From contig JASBUS010000085.1 in NCBI GenBank assembly GCA_030147745.1, positions 1 to 62,582 on the forward strand: DNA of 62,582 nt, read 5' to 3'. This document shows positions 4,516-10,034 of the stretch, piece after piece. The translations under genes were made by a program, and so were the position numbers. The DNA comes from Alphaproteobacteria bacterium (GTDB lineage: Bacteria; Pseudomonadota; Alphaproteobacteria; Micavibrionales; Micavibrionaceae). The first letter of the stretch is position 1; the number at the start of each line of letters is the position of its first letter. The notes below the pieces were generated by a model that did not search any database, was not told the origin of the DNA, and saw only the letters and a list, made by a program, of their open reading frames with translations.

Positions 4516-5166
4516 TTAATTTGTACCAAAACTGCGATCACCGGCATCACCAAGACCCGGCACAATATAGGCACGTTCATTCAAATGGCTATCAAGTGCT
4601 GCTGTATAAATTTGCATATCTGGATAATATTCTTCCAAATATTTCACACCTTCAGGTGCGGCAACCAAAACCATAAATTTAACGCGCGCCATATCCGCAC
4701 CTTTAGCCTTGATCATTTCAATAGCAAGTCCTGCAGAATGCCCTGTTGCAAGCATAGGGTCAACTAACAAAATATCGCGCCCCTTAAGGTCAGGCAGCTT
4801 ATTTAAATATTCAATTGCTTCTAACGTATCATGGTTTCGATACATTCCGACATGCGCAACAGTGGCTTCTGGCATTAAGTCTTCTAGGCCGTCAGACATA
4901 GCCAAGCCCGCACGCAAAATAGGTACAATGACTGGAAAATCGTTTTTCAGCACCGGCGCATTAAAGCTTTCAAGCGGTGTTTCAATGACTTTTGCTGTCG
5001 AAGGTAAATCAAGCGTGACATGATAAGCCATCATCTGACCAATGAATTTAACATTCTGGCGAAAAATGCGTTTAGATGTCGTATTTGCACGAATTTCACT
5101 TAAGCGGTGATCGATAAGCGGGCTATTTGCAACCCAGAGATTTTTAAAACCTGCGTGTTTATGCAT
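4516..5166 (-). CDS. upp: Uracil phosphoribosyltransferase
   Basis: UPRT salvages uracil by joining it to PRPP to give UMP. The frame is open to 5256, but the start at 5166 (MHKHAGFKNL) is chosen because it gives 216 residues, close to the family's 208-210, and AGGAG lies just upstream. The PRPP loop reads DPMLATGHSA, with His where the usual second Gly of TGGS stands. The uracil-binding C-terminus is clear (IVPGLGDAGDRSFGTN). The start overlaps the preceding gene's stop by 8 bases (ATGCATAA), so the two are probably translationally coupled. Confidence 0.93.
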   Translation of the reverse strand: MHKHAGFKNLWVANSPLIDHRLSEIRANTTSKRIFRQNVKFIGQMMAYHVTLDLPSTAKVIETPLESFNAPVLKNDFPVIVPILRAGLAMSDGLEDLMPEATVAHVGMYRNHDTLEAIEYLNKLPDLKGRDILLVDPMLATGHSAGLAIEMIKAKGADMARVKFMVLVAAPEGVKYLEEYYPDMQIYTAALDSHLNERAYIVPGLGDAGDRSFGTN

Positions 5167-6004
5167 CTTTATTCTCCTGCATAAATAATTCAAGCGGGCT
5201 AACCTCTTTATGAATGACCGAAGACGGGTCATCATTCTCAAGCTTTTGAACTTCAAGGCGCATATGCTTTAATAAATGTTCGATTTGGTCACCTGGCACA
5301 GGTTCTGACGCACAGAATAACAACTTGCTTGATGTTGTATCTAATGTCTGGTCAAGACGCTTATAGAAACGAATACCGCCATCGCTGTCGGTTTCTTTGA
5401 GCATCACAGCAAATTCATTATCGGTCAAAACATAGGCGTCATCAAAAACGCGCATGCATTTTTTAATCGCCGCTGCTGTTGAAAAGAAATCCTGCGTGCT
5501 GCGTCCTTTAACTTCGCTCTCGTCCGTAGACTTTAAGGTCACCAAGCCTAACACAAAGCTAGAGCCGTGACGCGCGCGGCGTTCCAGTTCAATTTCAAAA
5601 TCCTTAATCAACTGGGATTGCGCATTTAGGCCAGAGCGTATGATTAGATCTTCTTGATCACCATCATTATCCAGATTAGCTTGGATCAAGTGATCACAAA
5701 GCACAGCGATAGACTTATTGAGTTTTTCCAATATCGCGTTAGATTCTTCCGCATTGATTTTTGGGGTATCAATAAATTCATTGGCAAGACGTATAATGTC
5801 CTCAACACGGACGATCATATCATCATAGAAATTTTGTTGATCTGATGAGGTTGTTGAAGAGTTTTGCAGCCAATCAAGCAAGATATATGGCGGCTTAATT
5901 GCAACATTACCAGCGACATATGCATGAAATACCTGCATATACCAGTCTAGAAGCTTTTTTACGATCAATGCAACATGATCGGCGCTGGTGTTGTAATCGT
6001 TCAT
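5159..6004 (-). CDS. Degenerate GGDEF-like protein
   Basis: I read this 281-residue soluble protein as an inactive diguanylate-cyclase fold. The first 115 residues are helical with no recognised domain. From about 120 the pattern follows a GGDEF domain: RSGLNAQSQL for the LTGLxNR start, an ELERRARHG helix, a beta strand (FVLGLVTLK), then LTDNEFAVMLKETD at 193-206, where RYGGDEFAVLLPETD would stand. GG is replaced by TD or DN, so c-di-GMP synthesis is not expected; it could bind a nucleotide or a protein. It overlaps upp by 8 bases and follows gatB by 72. The assignment is by fold pattern, not by close similarity. Confidence 0.6.
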   Translation of the reverse strand: MNDYNTSADHVALIVKKLLDWYMQVFHAYVAGNVAIKPPYILLDWLQNSSTTSSDQQNFYDDMIVRVEDIIRLANEFIDTPKINAEESNAILEKLNKSIAVLCDHLIQANLDNDGDQEDLIIRSGLNAQSQLIKDFEIELERRARHGSSFVLGLVTLKSTDESEVKGRSTQDFFSTAAAIKKCMRVFDDAYVLTDNEFAVMLKETDSDGGIRFYKRLDQTLDTTSSKLLFCASEPVPGDQIEHLLKHMRLEVQKLENDDPSSVIHKEVSPLELFMQENKDA

Positions 6005-6076: not shown

Positions 6077-7531
6077 TTATGATAGCTTGTTTTTAAGCAG
6101 TTCGTTGACCATTTGCGGGTTAGCCTTACCTTGGCTTTCCTTCATCACCTGACCAACGAAGAAGCCGAACAATTTATCTTTACCAGATTTATATTGCTCA
6201 ACCTTATCTGGGTTTTCGGCAATTACTTTATCAACAAGAGCTTCAATTGCGCCTGTATCTGTAACCTGCTTAAGGCCCTGTTCTTCAACAATCACTTCAG
6301 GATCTTTACCTGATGCGTACATTTCAGCGAAAACATCTTTCGCGATACGACCTGAAATTGTGTTGTCTTCAATCAAGCCAACAAGTTTACCTAAGTTTTC
6401 AGATGAAATTGGAGATTCTTCAATGGTTTTGCCATCTTTGTTAAGGATACCCAAAAGCTCGTTAATCACCCAGTTGGCAGCCAATTTCGCATCACGATCA
6501 TTCGCAACTGTTTCAAAATAATCCGCGCGTGAACGTGATGAAATCAAAACACTGGCATCATATGCGCCAAGGCCATAATTTTGCATGAAACGGTGTTTTT
6601 TCTCATCTGGTAATTCTGGCAATGTCTTTTTAATGTCATCAACATAGCCTTGCTCCAATACAAGTGGAAGCAGGTCTGGATCAGGGAAATAACGGTAATC
6701 ATGCGCGTCTTCTTTTGACCGCATAGAGCGTGTGACGTTATGCGCAGGATCCCATAGACGTGTTTCCTGATCAATAGAGCCACCATCTTCAAGGATTTCG
6801 ATTTGACGGCGTGATTCATAATCAATCGCCGCTTGCGCAGCCTTGATAGAGTTCACGTTTTTAATTTCGCAGCGTGTACCCAATTTTGAATCGCCAACTT
6901 TACGAACAGAAATGTTAACGTCTGCACGCATTGAGCCTTCATCCATGTTACCATCACATGTACCCAAATAACGCAAGATCATACGAAGTTTTGTAAGGTA
7001 AGCACCGACTTCAATGCCATCACGCAAATCAGGCTCCGATACGATTTCCATCAATGTGTTGCCTGAACGGTTTAGGTCAACATATGACTTTGTTGGGTGT
7101 TGATCGTGGATAGACTTACCAGCGTCTTGTTCCAAGTGCAGGCGTGTAATACCAATTTTCTTCACTTCACCATTTGGCAAGTCAATCTCGATTTCACCTT
7201 CACCAACGATTGGGTGTAAATATTGTGAAATTTGGTAGCCTTGTGGCAAGTCAGGATAGAAGTAGTTTTTACGCTCAAATACTGAGTATAAATTGATTTT
7301 TGAATTCAACCCCAAACCTGTACGTACAGCTTGTTCAACTGACTTCATGTTCAGTACTGGCAGCATACCTGGCATTGCCGCATCAACCAATGATACTTGT
7401 GTATTTGGTGCTGCGCCGAATGTTGTCGCTGCGCCTGAGAATAGCTTTGATTCAGTGATTGCTTGGGCATGGACTTCCAAACCGATGACCATTTCCCAAT
7501 CGCCTGTGTTGCCTCTAATAATTTCAGCCAT
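6077..7531 (-). CDS. gatB: Asp-tRNA(Asn)/Glu-tRNA(Gln) amidotransferase subunit B
   Basis: GatB is the kinase and tRNA-binding subunit of the GatCAB complex, which converts mischarged Glu-tRNA(Gln) and Asp-tRNA(Asn) to the correct forms. At 484 residues it is full length. The N-terminal cradle domain shows [20 protein letters not shown] and the Zn/Mg-site region, with [10 protein letters not shown] and [17 protein letters not shown]. The C-terminal helical and YqeY-like tail ends in [13 protein letters not shown]. In this window gatC and gatA lie upstream in the same direction, but a secreted Cys-rich gene is inserted between gatA and gatB, 39 bases ahead of this start. Confidence 0.97.
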
Positions 7532-7570
7532 TTTATAAGTCCTTATAAATACTATATCTGTCTATTTTGT

Positions 7571-8230
7571 TTACCACTGCATGAATGCAGGTTGAATACA
7601 GGCGCGAATACCTGTGTTCACATATGTCTGGAATGTTGCCGAACGCACAAAAGATTCCTCTGGCGTTGCGTCTCTGTCCATCTCCATTGTGCGGAAGTGA
7701 CGAATAAGGTCATTCTCACCACGGTCTTGCAACATACGTGAAGCAATATCACCTACACATGAACAATATGCAGGGAAGCTGCGAATGCGGTTGTCATGCG
7801 TGCGGGTTTCCAAACATTTGGAATAGCCCAAAGTGCGAATTGGTGAATCCATACAAGGAATAACAACATCGCCCACATATTTAATCAGCGCCTTATCATA
7901 TTCAGGGTCACCAAGTTTTTTCTGACCAAGAACCATGTCCAATTCACCGTTGCTCATCACTTGAGTGATTGTGACCGACGCACATGTACAAAATTCATCG
8001 CGTGTCGATGGTGAAAAACCAACAGGTAAACGCCCGCTACAGTTTTGGTAGTATTTTTTACTACGCATACCATCAACTGGCGCGCGGCTATCCACCGCAC
8101 CAACAGGGCCTTGAATGCCCAAAGTAACTGAGCCACCCGCTTTGACCTGCGCCTGTGATGCGACACTAAATGTGCTCACACAAAGCAAAACTAAAGCCAG
8201 AAAACCAAGTTTTTTCGTTATAATACGCAT
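7571..8230 (-). CDS. Secreted Cys-rich protein with two C/CxC/C repeats
   Basis: I do not recognise this 219-residue protein. Residues 1-27 form a Sec signal peptide (LGFLALVLLCVSTFSVASQA, cleavage after SQA). The mature part has eight cysteines arranged as two similar units: NC, then CTC, then PC; and KC, then CSC, then AC. In each, a lone Cys is followed about 20 residues later by a CxC pair and about 50 residues later by another Cys, which suggests a duplicated disulfide-bonded or metal-binding domain in the periplasm. It starts 4 bases after gatA and ends 39 bases before gatB, so it must be co-transcribed with the amidotransferase genes. No link in function to GatCAB is apparent. Confidence 0.65.
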   Translation of the reverse strand: MRIITKKLGFLALVLLCVSTFSVASQAQVKAGGSVTLGIQGPVGAVDSRAPVDGMRSKKYYQNCSGRLPVGFSPSTRDEFCTCASVTITQVMSNGELDMVLGQKKLGDPEYDKALIKYVGDVVIPCMDSPIRTLGYSKCLETRTHDNRIRSFPAYCSCVGDIASRMLQDRGENDLIRHFRTMEMDRDATPEESFVRSATFQTYVNTGIRACIQPAFMQW

Positions 8231-8234
8231 ATGC

Positions 8235-9719
8235 TTACGCCGCCTTATTAATCACAAATTGAGGTTTTGCGCTGAACGCTGATGCACGCTCGATAAAGCG
8301 GCACGCACGCAATACAGTTACTTCATCAAATGGACGACCAATAACTTGCAAACCGAGTGGCAAGCCGCGCTTATCTAAACCAGCTGGTACAGACATACCC
8401 GGAAGACCCGCCATGTTCACAGTTACTGTGAACACGTCATTCAAATACATTTTGATTGGATCATCTTCATTTTCACCAATTGCGAAGGCCGATGATGGTG
8501 TTGCTGGTGTAAGAATGAAATCAACTTTCTCATAAGCCTTTTTGAAGTCGTCTTGTATAAGGCGACGTACTTTTTGTGCTTGGATGTAATACGCATCGTA
8601 ATAACCCGCAGAAAGCACATATGAACCAACCATGATACGGCGCTTAACTTCGTCGCCAAAGCCTTCCGCGCGTGATTTACAGTATGTTTCTGCAAGGTCC
8701 TTACCATCAACGCGCAAGCCATAACGTACGCCATCATAACGCGCCAAGTTTGATGACGCCTCAGCTGGAGCAACGATATAATATGCAGGCAATGCATATT
8801 TCGTGTGCGGCAATGAAATATCAACGATTTCTGCGCCTGCTTCACGTAGCCACTCAATGCCCTGCTCCCAAATCGCGTTGATTTCAGCAGGTGTTTCATC
8901 CAGACGATATTCTTTAGGAATACCAACCTTAAGGCCTTTAACACCTTGTTCGATCAATGCAGGGAAATCTGGCACGTCCAATTTTGCAGATGTGCTATCT
9001 TTCGGGTCGTAACCTGACATAGATTTAAGCATGTGCGCGCAGTCTTCAACGCTACGACCGAATGCGCCCGCTTGGTCAAGTGATGATGCGAAGGCAACGA
9101 CGCCCCAACGTGAACAACGACCATATGTTGGACGAATACCCGCGATACCGCAGAATGCCGCAGGCTGACGGATTGAACCACCAGTATCTGTGCCTGTAGA
9201 CAGCATCGCAATATTAGCCGCAACAGCGGCTGCTGAACCACCTGATGAACCACCAGGTACTAAGTCTGCATCGCTGTCATTCGCCTTCCATGGGTTAACC
9301 ACGTTACCGAAATATGATGTTGTGTTTGATGACCCCATCGCGAATTCATCAAGGTTTGTTTTACCAAGCATAACTGCACCATCAGCAAAAAGCTTAGATG
9401 TTACTGTTGATTCATATGTTGGAATAAAACCTTCAAGGATTTTTGATGCCGCCGTTGTCTGCACGCCTTCTGTACAGAACAAATCTTTGATACCTGTTGG
9501 AATACCATCAAGCGGCAAAGCTGTGCCTGCGGCGTAGCGCTTATCACTTTCAGCTGCCTGTTTAAGGGCAATTTCTGGTGTTTCCAAAATATAAGCATTC
9601 AAATGGCGTGCTTTTTCCATTGCATCCAAATGCGCTTTTGTTAATTCAACGGCAGAAAAATCTTTATTTTTCATGCCCGCTAGTGCTTCTGATACACTTA
9701 AAGCTGTTAAATCCGTCAT
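8235..9719 (-). CDS. gatA: Asp-tRNA(Asn)/Glu-tRNA(Gln) amidotransferase subunit A
   Basis: GatA is the glutaminase subunit that frees ammonia from glutamine for GatB. The 494 residues carry the amidase-signature fold with its Ser-cisSer-Lys triad: Lys78 in [10 protein letters not shown], Ser158 in [12 protein letters not shown] and nucleophile Ser182 in [11 protein letters not shown]. The C-terminal part ([15 protein letters not shown]) is standard. It is 24 bases downstream of gatC. The family also contains other amidases, but the gatC and gatB neighbours settle the role. Confidence 0.97.
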
Positions 9720-9743: not shown

Positions 9744-10034
9744 TTACTCGACAATTTTGCTAACCACGAAAAAGCCTTCTTGGCTTTCTGGCGCATTTTT
9801 CAATACTTTGTCAGCGATACCGCCATCAGTGACCGCATCTTCACGCAAAACAAGTGGAATCTCGTTCACACTTGCAAGCGGCTCTACATTATCCGTATTT
9901 ACTTCGGATAGCTGCTCAACAAAGCCTAGAATACCTTCTAACTTTTTACCAACAGCTTCAATTTCACTATCTTGAACTTCGATCTGCGCCAAGCGCGCAA
10001 CTTTACGAACGGTTTTTTGATCCATCACAGACAT
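9744..10034 (-). CDS. gatC: Asp-tRNA(Asn)/Glu-tRNA(Gln) amidotransferase subunit C
   Basis: The small wrapping subunit of GatCAB (96 residues, normal size). The start MDQKTVRKVARLAQIEV, the central helix GILGFVEQLSEVNTDNVEPL and the tail (APESQEGFFVVSKIVE) are typical of the family. ATG at 10034 is preferred to an in-frame ATG at 10025 because AAGAGAAA stands at ribosome-site distance. First gene of the leftward operon gatC-gatA-orf-gatB, and divergent from ruvX with a 100-base shared promoter region. Confidence 0.94.
   Translation of the reverse strand: MSVMDQKTVRKVARLAQIEVQDSEIEAVGKKLEGILGFVEQLSEVNTDNVEPLASVNEIPLVLREDAVTDGGIADKVLKNAPESQEGFFVVSKIVE

Follow-up and report, generated by a model that had tools for sequence, protein, structure and literature searches.

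A conserved gene for a putatively exported protein with two four-cysteine units between gatA and gatB in Micavibrionaceae

Comparison with described systems

The closest described arrangement is the gatCAB operon, in which gatC, gatA and gatB follow one another in the same order on one strand as they do here; the present locus differs in that a gene for a putatively exported protein stands between gatA and gatB. To our knowledge, exported proteins are seldom encoded in operons devoted to translation. The locus lies in a 62.6-kb stretch of DNA (hereafter the window), contig 9 of a 2.39-Mb genome of the family Micavibrionaceae, and is read on the minus strand in the order gatC, gatA, the gene of interest (Cys gene) and gatB. 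The gat genes were assigned by NCBIfam and Pfam models: gatC at 9744..10034 (TIGR00135, 93.2 bits against a cut-off of 47.1; PF02686), gatA at 8235..9719 (TIGR00132, 585.7 bits against 481.1; PF01425) and gatB at 6077..7531 (NF004015, 846.7 bits against 628; PF02934 and PF02637). The Cys gene (7571..8230, minus strand) is an open reading frame with relatives in other genomes and encodes 219 residues; its ATG follows the gatA stop codon after 4 bases (8231..8234), and 39 bases (7532..7570) separate it from gatB, spacings that the initial annotation had given and that agree with the coordinates. On the 3′ side of gatB, a reading frame at 5159–6004 (minus strand) has weak similarity to diguanylate cyclases (PRK09894, E 1.8e-5, far below the cut-off) and perhaps encodes a degenerate GGDEF protein.

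Of the nine cysteines in the Cys protein, one (C17) belongs to the signal peptide and the other eight to the mature part. The signal peptide (residues 1–27; 8150..8230, minus strand) was judged by eye, with S-Q-A preceding a putative cleavage site after residue 27 and a helix over residues 4–20 in the structural model, and a hydrophobic stretch of 11 residues near the start is present in 119 of the 123 family proteins; both features support the export that had been proposed at the outset. The four proteins without the stretch are G128 (masked by N), G023 (no start found), and G030 (near a contig end) and G047, which lack it after the start chosen by a script. The mature cysteines form two C / CxC / C units, as first described: unit 1 (residues 54–131; 7838..8071, minus strand) with C64, C81-x-C83 and C126, supported by invariant alignment columns and a model of the unit, and unit 2 (residues 132–217; 7580..7837, minus strand) with C139, C156-x-C158 and C211, supported by invariant alignment columns and model helices. 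Among window reading frames of at least 60 residues with both ends inside the window, the pattern C-x(8-28)-CxC-x(20-60)-C occurs in the Cys protein only, where it is found twice.

Several described protein families resemble this architecture. The Rap1a/Tai immunity domain, presumably PF18602, is a small periplasmic helical protein with two disulfides and offers a works-like lead for the Cys protein; unlike Rap1a/Tai, the Cys protein has no effector partner that we could see. The Rap1a/Tai fold, which the two may still share, was not recognised among the matches listed by Foldseek and VIA-align. LprI/DUF1311, which we take to be PF07007, has a cysteine spacing different from that of the Cys protein. 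It is a second works-like lead, in that its features (exported, helical, four cysteines; see also PMC7933661) are shared. The sequence of the window protein nevertheless matches neither model, nor any other Pfam family, at E 1, a search in which matches weaker than about E 0.1 are mostly removed by the filters of HMMER. CHCH proteins carry CX9C twice. According to an excerpt of PMC12114033, these twin CX9C proteins consist of helical units held by two disulfides, a build that is also predicted for the Cys protein. The two differ, however, in the absence of a Pfam match and in spacing: the C1–C2 distance is at least 16 in 120 of 120 Cys proteins, and where C5–C6 equals 9 (12 of 120) the second cysteine belongs to a CxC and C7–C8 is 49–54. 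Thioredoxin-like proteins differ from the Cys protein in that the latter has no Pfam match, an all-helical model, and CxC instead of CxxC. Beyond Pfam, the window protein had no match at E 0.1 in PHROGs or PADLOC, and its sole NCBIfam row, FlgH (E 0.24), was taken as chance. No report of the Cys protein was found in the literature on Micavibrio, Micavibrionales and intervening genes in gatA-gatB operons, which included excerpts of PMC3189940 and PMC9933672, or among the matches listed for four-cysteine periplasmic proteins.

Conservation of the gene and of its place

A profile built from 38 aligned sequences (A1; 41 minus three near-duplicates) matched 94 of the 142 genomes of the order at E 0.01. 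Two of these, G117 and G142, gave weak matches only (E 0.001–0.003), to proteins of a second, non-gat group, and the gat-linked Cys gene is accordingly present in 92 of the 104 genomes of the window's family (Micavibrionaceae, f1); the profile found nothing in the order's remaining 38 genomes, which belong to six further families. In 82 of the 92 carriers the gene is flanked by gatA and gatB on a shared contig and strand; each of the remaining 10 has it next to a single gat gene and no more than about 860 bases from a contig end. Seen from the operon, 82 of the 83 f1 genomes in which gatA and gatB are on one contig and strand and at least 100 bases apart hold the Cys gene between them, the sole exception being G003, with a gap of 247 bases. 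Sixty-one genomes carry one copy and 31 carry two in tandem, giving 123 proteins. At 20 loci taken from named records, some of which are the same records as those of the genome set and so are not independent counts, a gat gene is present on each side that the contig permits in all 20 (both sides in 18, gatB only in L057 and gatA only in L066). The gatA match of L003 (G002, C29) is broken near its 3′ end, residues 438–456 being matched twice about 260 bases apart, which may be an assembly error or a small duplication.

The initial annotation had called a secreted protein inside this operon odd and had asked whether homologues keep the location; the location is real and retained across the family. 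Homologues elsewhere with no gat link, which would have spoken against it, are confined, among matches at E 1e-10 or better, to one further copy in G011 (L046:940-1464, minus strand; 174 residues, eight cysteines), whose match to the gat-linked profile (E 1.1e-10) is better than its match to the second group (E 3.1). The gat link thus holds for the orthologous group and does not extend to the more distant paralogous group, which is sited elsewhere. Because relatives occur in 92 of 104 genomes, eight cysteines are invariant and dN/dS is 0.06–0.13, the Cys gene is a real, conserved and so far unnamed feature, and not a chance reading frame.

The gene is nonetheless dispensable in places. The order-wide searches found gatB in 130 and gatA in 135 of 142 genomes. 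Among the 12 f1 genomes without the Cys gene, a single contig holds both gatA and gatB in six (gaps of 2, 11, 27, 37, 46 and 247 bases), G029 has the two genes apart, and five miss one or both gat matches. In G020, G034, G035, G039 and G117 the gap is 2–46 bases; the Cys gene is absent from these five genomes and is therefore not required there. A search for remnants in these five and in G003 gave only matches at E 0.006 or worse over 6–45 residues, taken as chance. These observations bear on the idea that the protein works with GatCAB, for instance as a cytosolic form made without the signal peptide. The conserved operon place is what would favour such a partnership, but three observations argue against it: 119 of 123 relatives have a hydrophobic stretch near the N-terminus, six f1 genomes retain gatA and gatB on one contig without the Cys gene, and the single-unit relatives sit in other surroundings. 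We consider such a partnership extremely improbable. The 219-residue protein matches neither Pfam nor the Gat models of NCBIfam, and no test made here gives a sign that it is part of the amidotransferase.

Spacing within the junction is tight. The median gap after the gatA stop codon is 16 bases in one-copy and 32 in two-copy genomes (19 and 35 counting the stop codon), and that from the last Cys gene to gatB is 38 and 36 bases, respectively. No more than 150 bases separate gatA from the first copy in 75 of 82 genomes and the last copy from gatB in 74 of 82; between tandem copies the distance is at most 60 bases in 29 of 30 pairs. It is possible, although we think it doubtful, that the arrangement is an inherited accident, in which a junction that tolerates insertions received the gene once in the family's ancestor and kept it with no gain from linkage. 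The junction does carry other genes elsewhere in the order: outside f1, gatA and gatB share a contig and strand in 28 genomes, and they are within 100 bases of each other in 16 of these and at least 320 bases apart in 12. One junction reading frame from each of eight of these 12 was compared with Pfam, and four matched (a GNAT acetyltransferase, DUF805, an alpha/beta hydrolase and an EamA transporter) and four did not; a further junction frame, in L037, is also EamA. An EamA gene likewise separates the Cys gene from gatB in six f1 genomes. Against an accident stand the retention of the Cys gene in 92 of 104 genomes, its tight spacing and its two copies in 31, which together suggest more than inertia. 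EamA genes, one or two per junction, were recorded in L116, L151, L153, L112, L144 and L108 (f1, between the Cys gene and gatB) and in L036 and L037 (f7, between gatA and gatB); EamA may be an older junction gene.

A tree was built from 120 of the 123 proteins, G023 (no start), G041 (cut by a contig end) and G128 (masked) having been dropped. Many genera form clades in it within a copy type (e.g., g1, g3, g4, g11, g18, g23, g29 and g30) and g8, g14 and g35 do not; such genus clades would fit inheritance, and descent of the Cys gene from the family's ancestor is consistent with the data without being proved by them. The window's genus groups with the first copies of g3, g4, g18 and g32 (support 99/93) and may therefore have lost a second copy. 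The tree does not sort first, last and single copies into three clean clades (12 label changes against a minimum of 2), and it thus does not demonstrate a single old duplication followed by simple losses. Possible mobile carriers added nothing: one scan of viral contigs with profile A2 gave 26 pattern matches and a first scan of genome contigs with a single protein gave 41, none of them confirmed, and plasmids gave no tblastn match.

Purifying selection on the Cys protein is evident in related pairs of genomes, with dN/dS of 0.06–0.13 in 11 protein comparisons from seven of the nine pairs tried; the other two, including the window's own pair (G000/G001), gave no value. Between the window and G001, identity is 62.7% for the Cys protein, 93.5% for GatA and 95.5% for GatB, against a median of 86.3% over 49 mechanically chosen window proteins. 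This combination of a fixed cysteine frame with a variable remainder would suit a periplasmic inhibitor or immunity-like protein, comparable to LprI or Rap1a/Tai, that protects the cell from cell-wall hydrolases, whether the cell's own or foreign. The general build of those families is shared (small, exported, helical, four cysteines per unit), and a predator that digests its prey could need such protection. However, no Pfam family was matched by the window protein at E 1, the 25 listed of the 27 families matched by the other 37 members of A1 do not include LprI or Rap1a, and no hydrolase or toxin gene was recognised beside the Cys gene. Nor was rapid evolution taken as evidence of an arms race, since five of the 49 proteins are less conserved than the Cys protein, two of them with a hydrophobic N-terminal stretch, and the rate is thus not unique. 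We regard an inhibitory or immunity role as unlikely.

Cysteine frame and predicted fold

In the 38 aligned sequences, the eight mature cysteines and P190 alone are invariant. The two-unit C / CxC / C pattern is present in 120 of the 123 proteins; the remaining three are G041, cut by a contig end, G128, masked, and G023, which has eight cysteines with one spacing off the pattern. The interval C4-x12-C5 is constant in all 120, and the commonest other spacings among these proteins are 16 for C1–C2 (98), 38 for C3–C4 (75), 16 for C5–C6 (61) and 50 for C7–C8 (85), so that unit 1 is mostly C-x16-CxC-x38-C.

The two units were originally described as similar, and this similarity stands in part. The half-profiles align with an hhalign probability of 85% (E 5.9e-6, a single comparison), and when cysteine columns are kept and the rest is shuffled, none of 100 shuffles reaches the real half-against-half score. 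With cysteines masked, 13 of 100 shuffles equal the score of the real pair; for this reason the similarity of the halves is, at the level of these profiles, carried mainly by the cysteine frame, and the objection that they share nothing beyond cysteines is only half excluded. The expectation of two equal domains from structure prediction was likewise borne out only as far as similarity goes: helix B is much longer in unit 2 than in unit 1 of the model, and the units are not equal.

The AlphaFold2 model of the whole protein is all-helical (mean pLDDT 84.6), with helices at residues 54–65, 74–91, 94–101, 109–143, 152–184, 190–196 and 198–210, of which the long helix 109–143 closes unit 1 and opens unit 2. 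Unit 1 modelled alone from 109 sequences has four helices and a pLDDT of 90.5. In both units the CxC is predicted to lie inside a helix, in the middle of the helix in unit 1 and close to the beginning of the long helix B of unit 2, and in ideal helix geometry the two sulfur atoms of such a CxC are about 9.7 Å and about 200 degrees apart. At this distance and angle, two disulfides to two neighbours would probably suit the cysteines better than one metal.

The initial annotation had read the CxC pairs with flanking cysteines as a hint of metal binding or disulfide exchange, and the position of the CxC within a predicted helix makes both less likely. For a periplasmic metal-binding protein, in which the C / CxC / C cysteines would coordinate copper or zinc, one may cite the four cysteines per unit with their CxC and a weak resemblance of unit 1 to a periplasmic Cu(I)-bound protein (7vw1_A; VIA-align Z 4.1, rmsd 7.6, 71 residues aligned). 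The side chains of an in-helix CxC, some 200 degrees apart, nevertheless provide poor geometry for one shared metal, and, besides the cysteines, only P190 is invariant, leaving the mature part with no invariant His, Met or acidic residue; a metal site is thus quite unlikely, slightly more so than an inhibitor. Exchange of thiols and disulfides with the CxC as the redox pair appears very unlikely. Although the CxC occurs twice, behind a signal peptide and in a genome that encodes DsbB, it lies within a helix of an all-helical model that matches no thioredoxin family, and C1 and C4 are as invariant as the CxC itself. DsbB was found in 69 of the 70 genomes searched, the window's included.

Comparison with known structures recognised no fold for the Cys protein, which does not make the predicted fold a new one. 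Searches of PDB sequences gave a designed repeat protein as the best match of profile A1 (E 0.11) and interferon gamma as that of the unit 1 profile (E 0.091), both taken as chance, and Foldseek found nothing in the PDB at E 0.001 or better for either the whole model or unit 1. The best VIA-align match of the whole model, 8dy9_F from an RNA polymerase complex (rmsd 2.3 over 70 residues), covers unit 2 only, and its Z of 7.0 falls among the values that the tool describes as common with helical models; for the unit 1 model the best was 7oci_B (Z 4.8, rmsd 7.8, 72 aligned).

Proposed role and wider family

With moderate confidence we favour the reading that the Cys protein is an exported helical scaffold or binding protein pinned by disulfides, whose production follows translation through the gat operon, and that it has no role as an enzyme, as a metal site or in tRNA amidation. 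The product would be exported by Sec and oxidised in the periplasm, and would then fold into two helical units in a row. Two structural disulfides would pin each unit, the first joining helix A to helix B and the second helix B to helix D, with the two cysteines of the CxC facing opposite sides of helix B. The resulting rigid double unit would have a binding or scaffolding function, either in the periplasm or on the cell surface. The order gatC-gatA-X-gatB, if co-transcribed, would tie its production to the translation machinery and hence to growth, with no part for the protein in tRNA amidation itself. Place alone is no proof of coupling, because the gatA-gatB junction also carries unrelated genes. 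Scans for promoters and terminators returned about as many sites as shuffled sequences (4 against a mean of 6.0, and 4 against 3.1), and two of the terminator-like sites fall within the Cys gene, on its coding strand.

According to an excerpt of PMC3189940, all genes of the translation process increased when M. aeruginosavorus ARL-13 was in its attachment phase, and a protein of the gat operon would therefore be predicted to appear while the predator feeds. NCBI taxonomy files Micavibrio aeruginosavorus under Pseudobdellovibrionaceae. The locus matters in that most members of a family with an obligate predator among them have kept, within gatCAB, a gene for a putatively exported protein with an unnamed domain and a strict cysteine frame; the gene, its place, its paralogues and its single-unit relatives offer a handle on the unexplained exported proteins of these bacteria.

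The paralogues form a second group of putatively exported double or triple units that are not gat-linked and occur in 64 of 67 f1 genomes and none of 38 others; the profiles of the two groups align with a probability of 96.8% (E 2.7e-10). The window's own genome holds two second-group copies, on contigs other than the window (G000:C40, L197:3851-4495, minus strand; G000:C76, L198:3782-4306, plus strand). Among 16 second-group neighbourhoods, one helix-turn-helix gene (HTH_17, E 1e-5, slightly below the cut-off) is represented by a relative in 13, and 12 contain an acyl-CoA dehydrogenase gene. Since both a triple-unit relative (G012, L211:4234-5139, minus strand; 301 residues, 12 cysteines) and a single-unit relative (in L075 of G187; E 4.8e-14 against the family profile, search space set to 3500) exist, the C / CxC / C unit behaves as a module. 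It is tempting to speculate that this unit is an undescribed exported helical domain, which the Micavibrio family has expanded into a small multigene set (gat-linked copies, frequently tandem, plus a second group with two or three units, next to a helix-turn-helix gene) acting at the predator envelope during growth on prey, for example in docking or protection, with the gat-operon copy made in step with translation, which rises during feeding. We hold this broader proposal to be a tentative one, less probable than an inherited accident and a little more so than an inhibitor.

Across 385 genomes of the class, profile A1 matches 11, four of them f1, and the unit 1 profile matches 17, again with four of f1. 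In the 13 unit 1 matches outside f1, the C / CxC / C pattern is present once in 12 reading frames and absent in L225. The single-unit gene of G187 (L075:1432-1827, minus strand), whose product has four cysteines and is putatively exported, directly follows adk (Pfam), beyond which lie a gene on the opposite strand and then ribosomal-protein genes (assigned by eye). A comparable single-unit gene for a putatively exported four-cysteine protein in G284 (L076:1327-1860, plus strand) stands directly after two ribosomal-protein genes, also recognised by eye. By analogy, these single-unit genes beside adk and ribosomal-protein genes may parallel the gat case.
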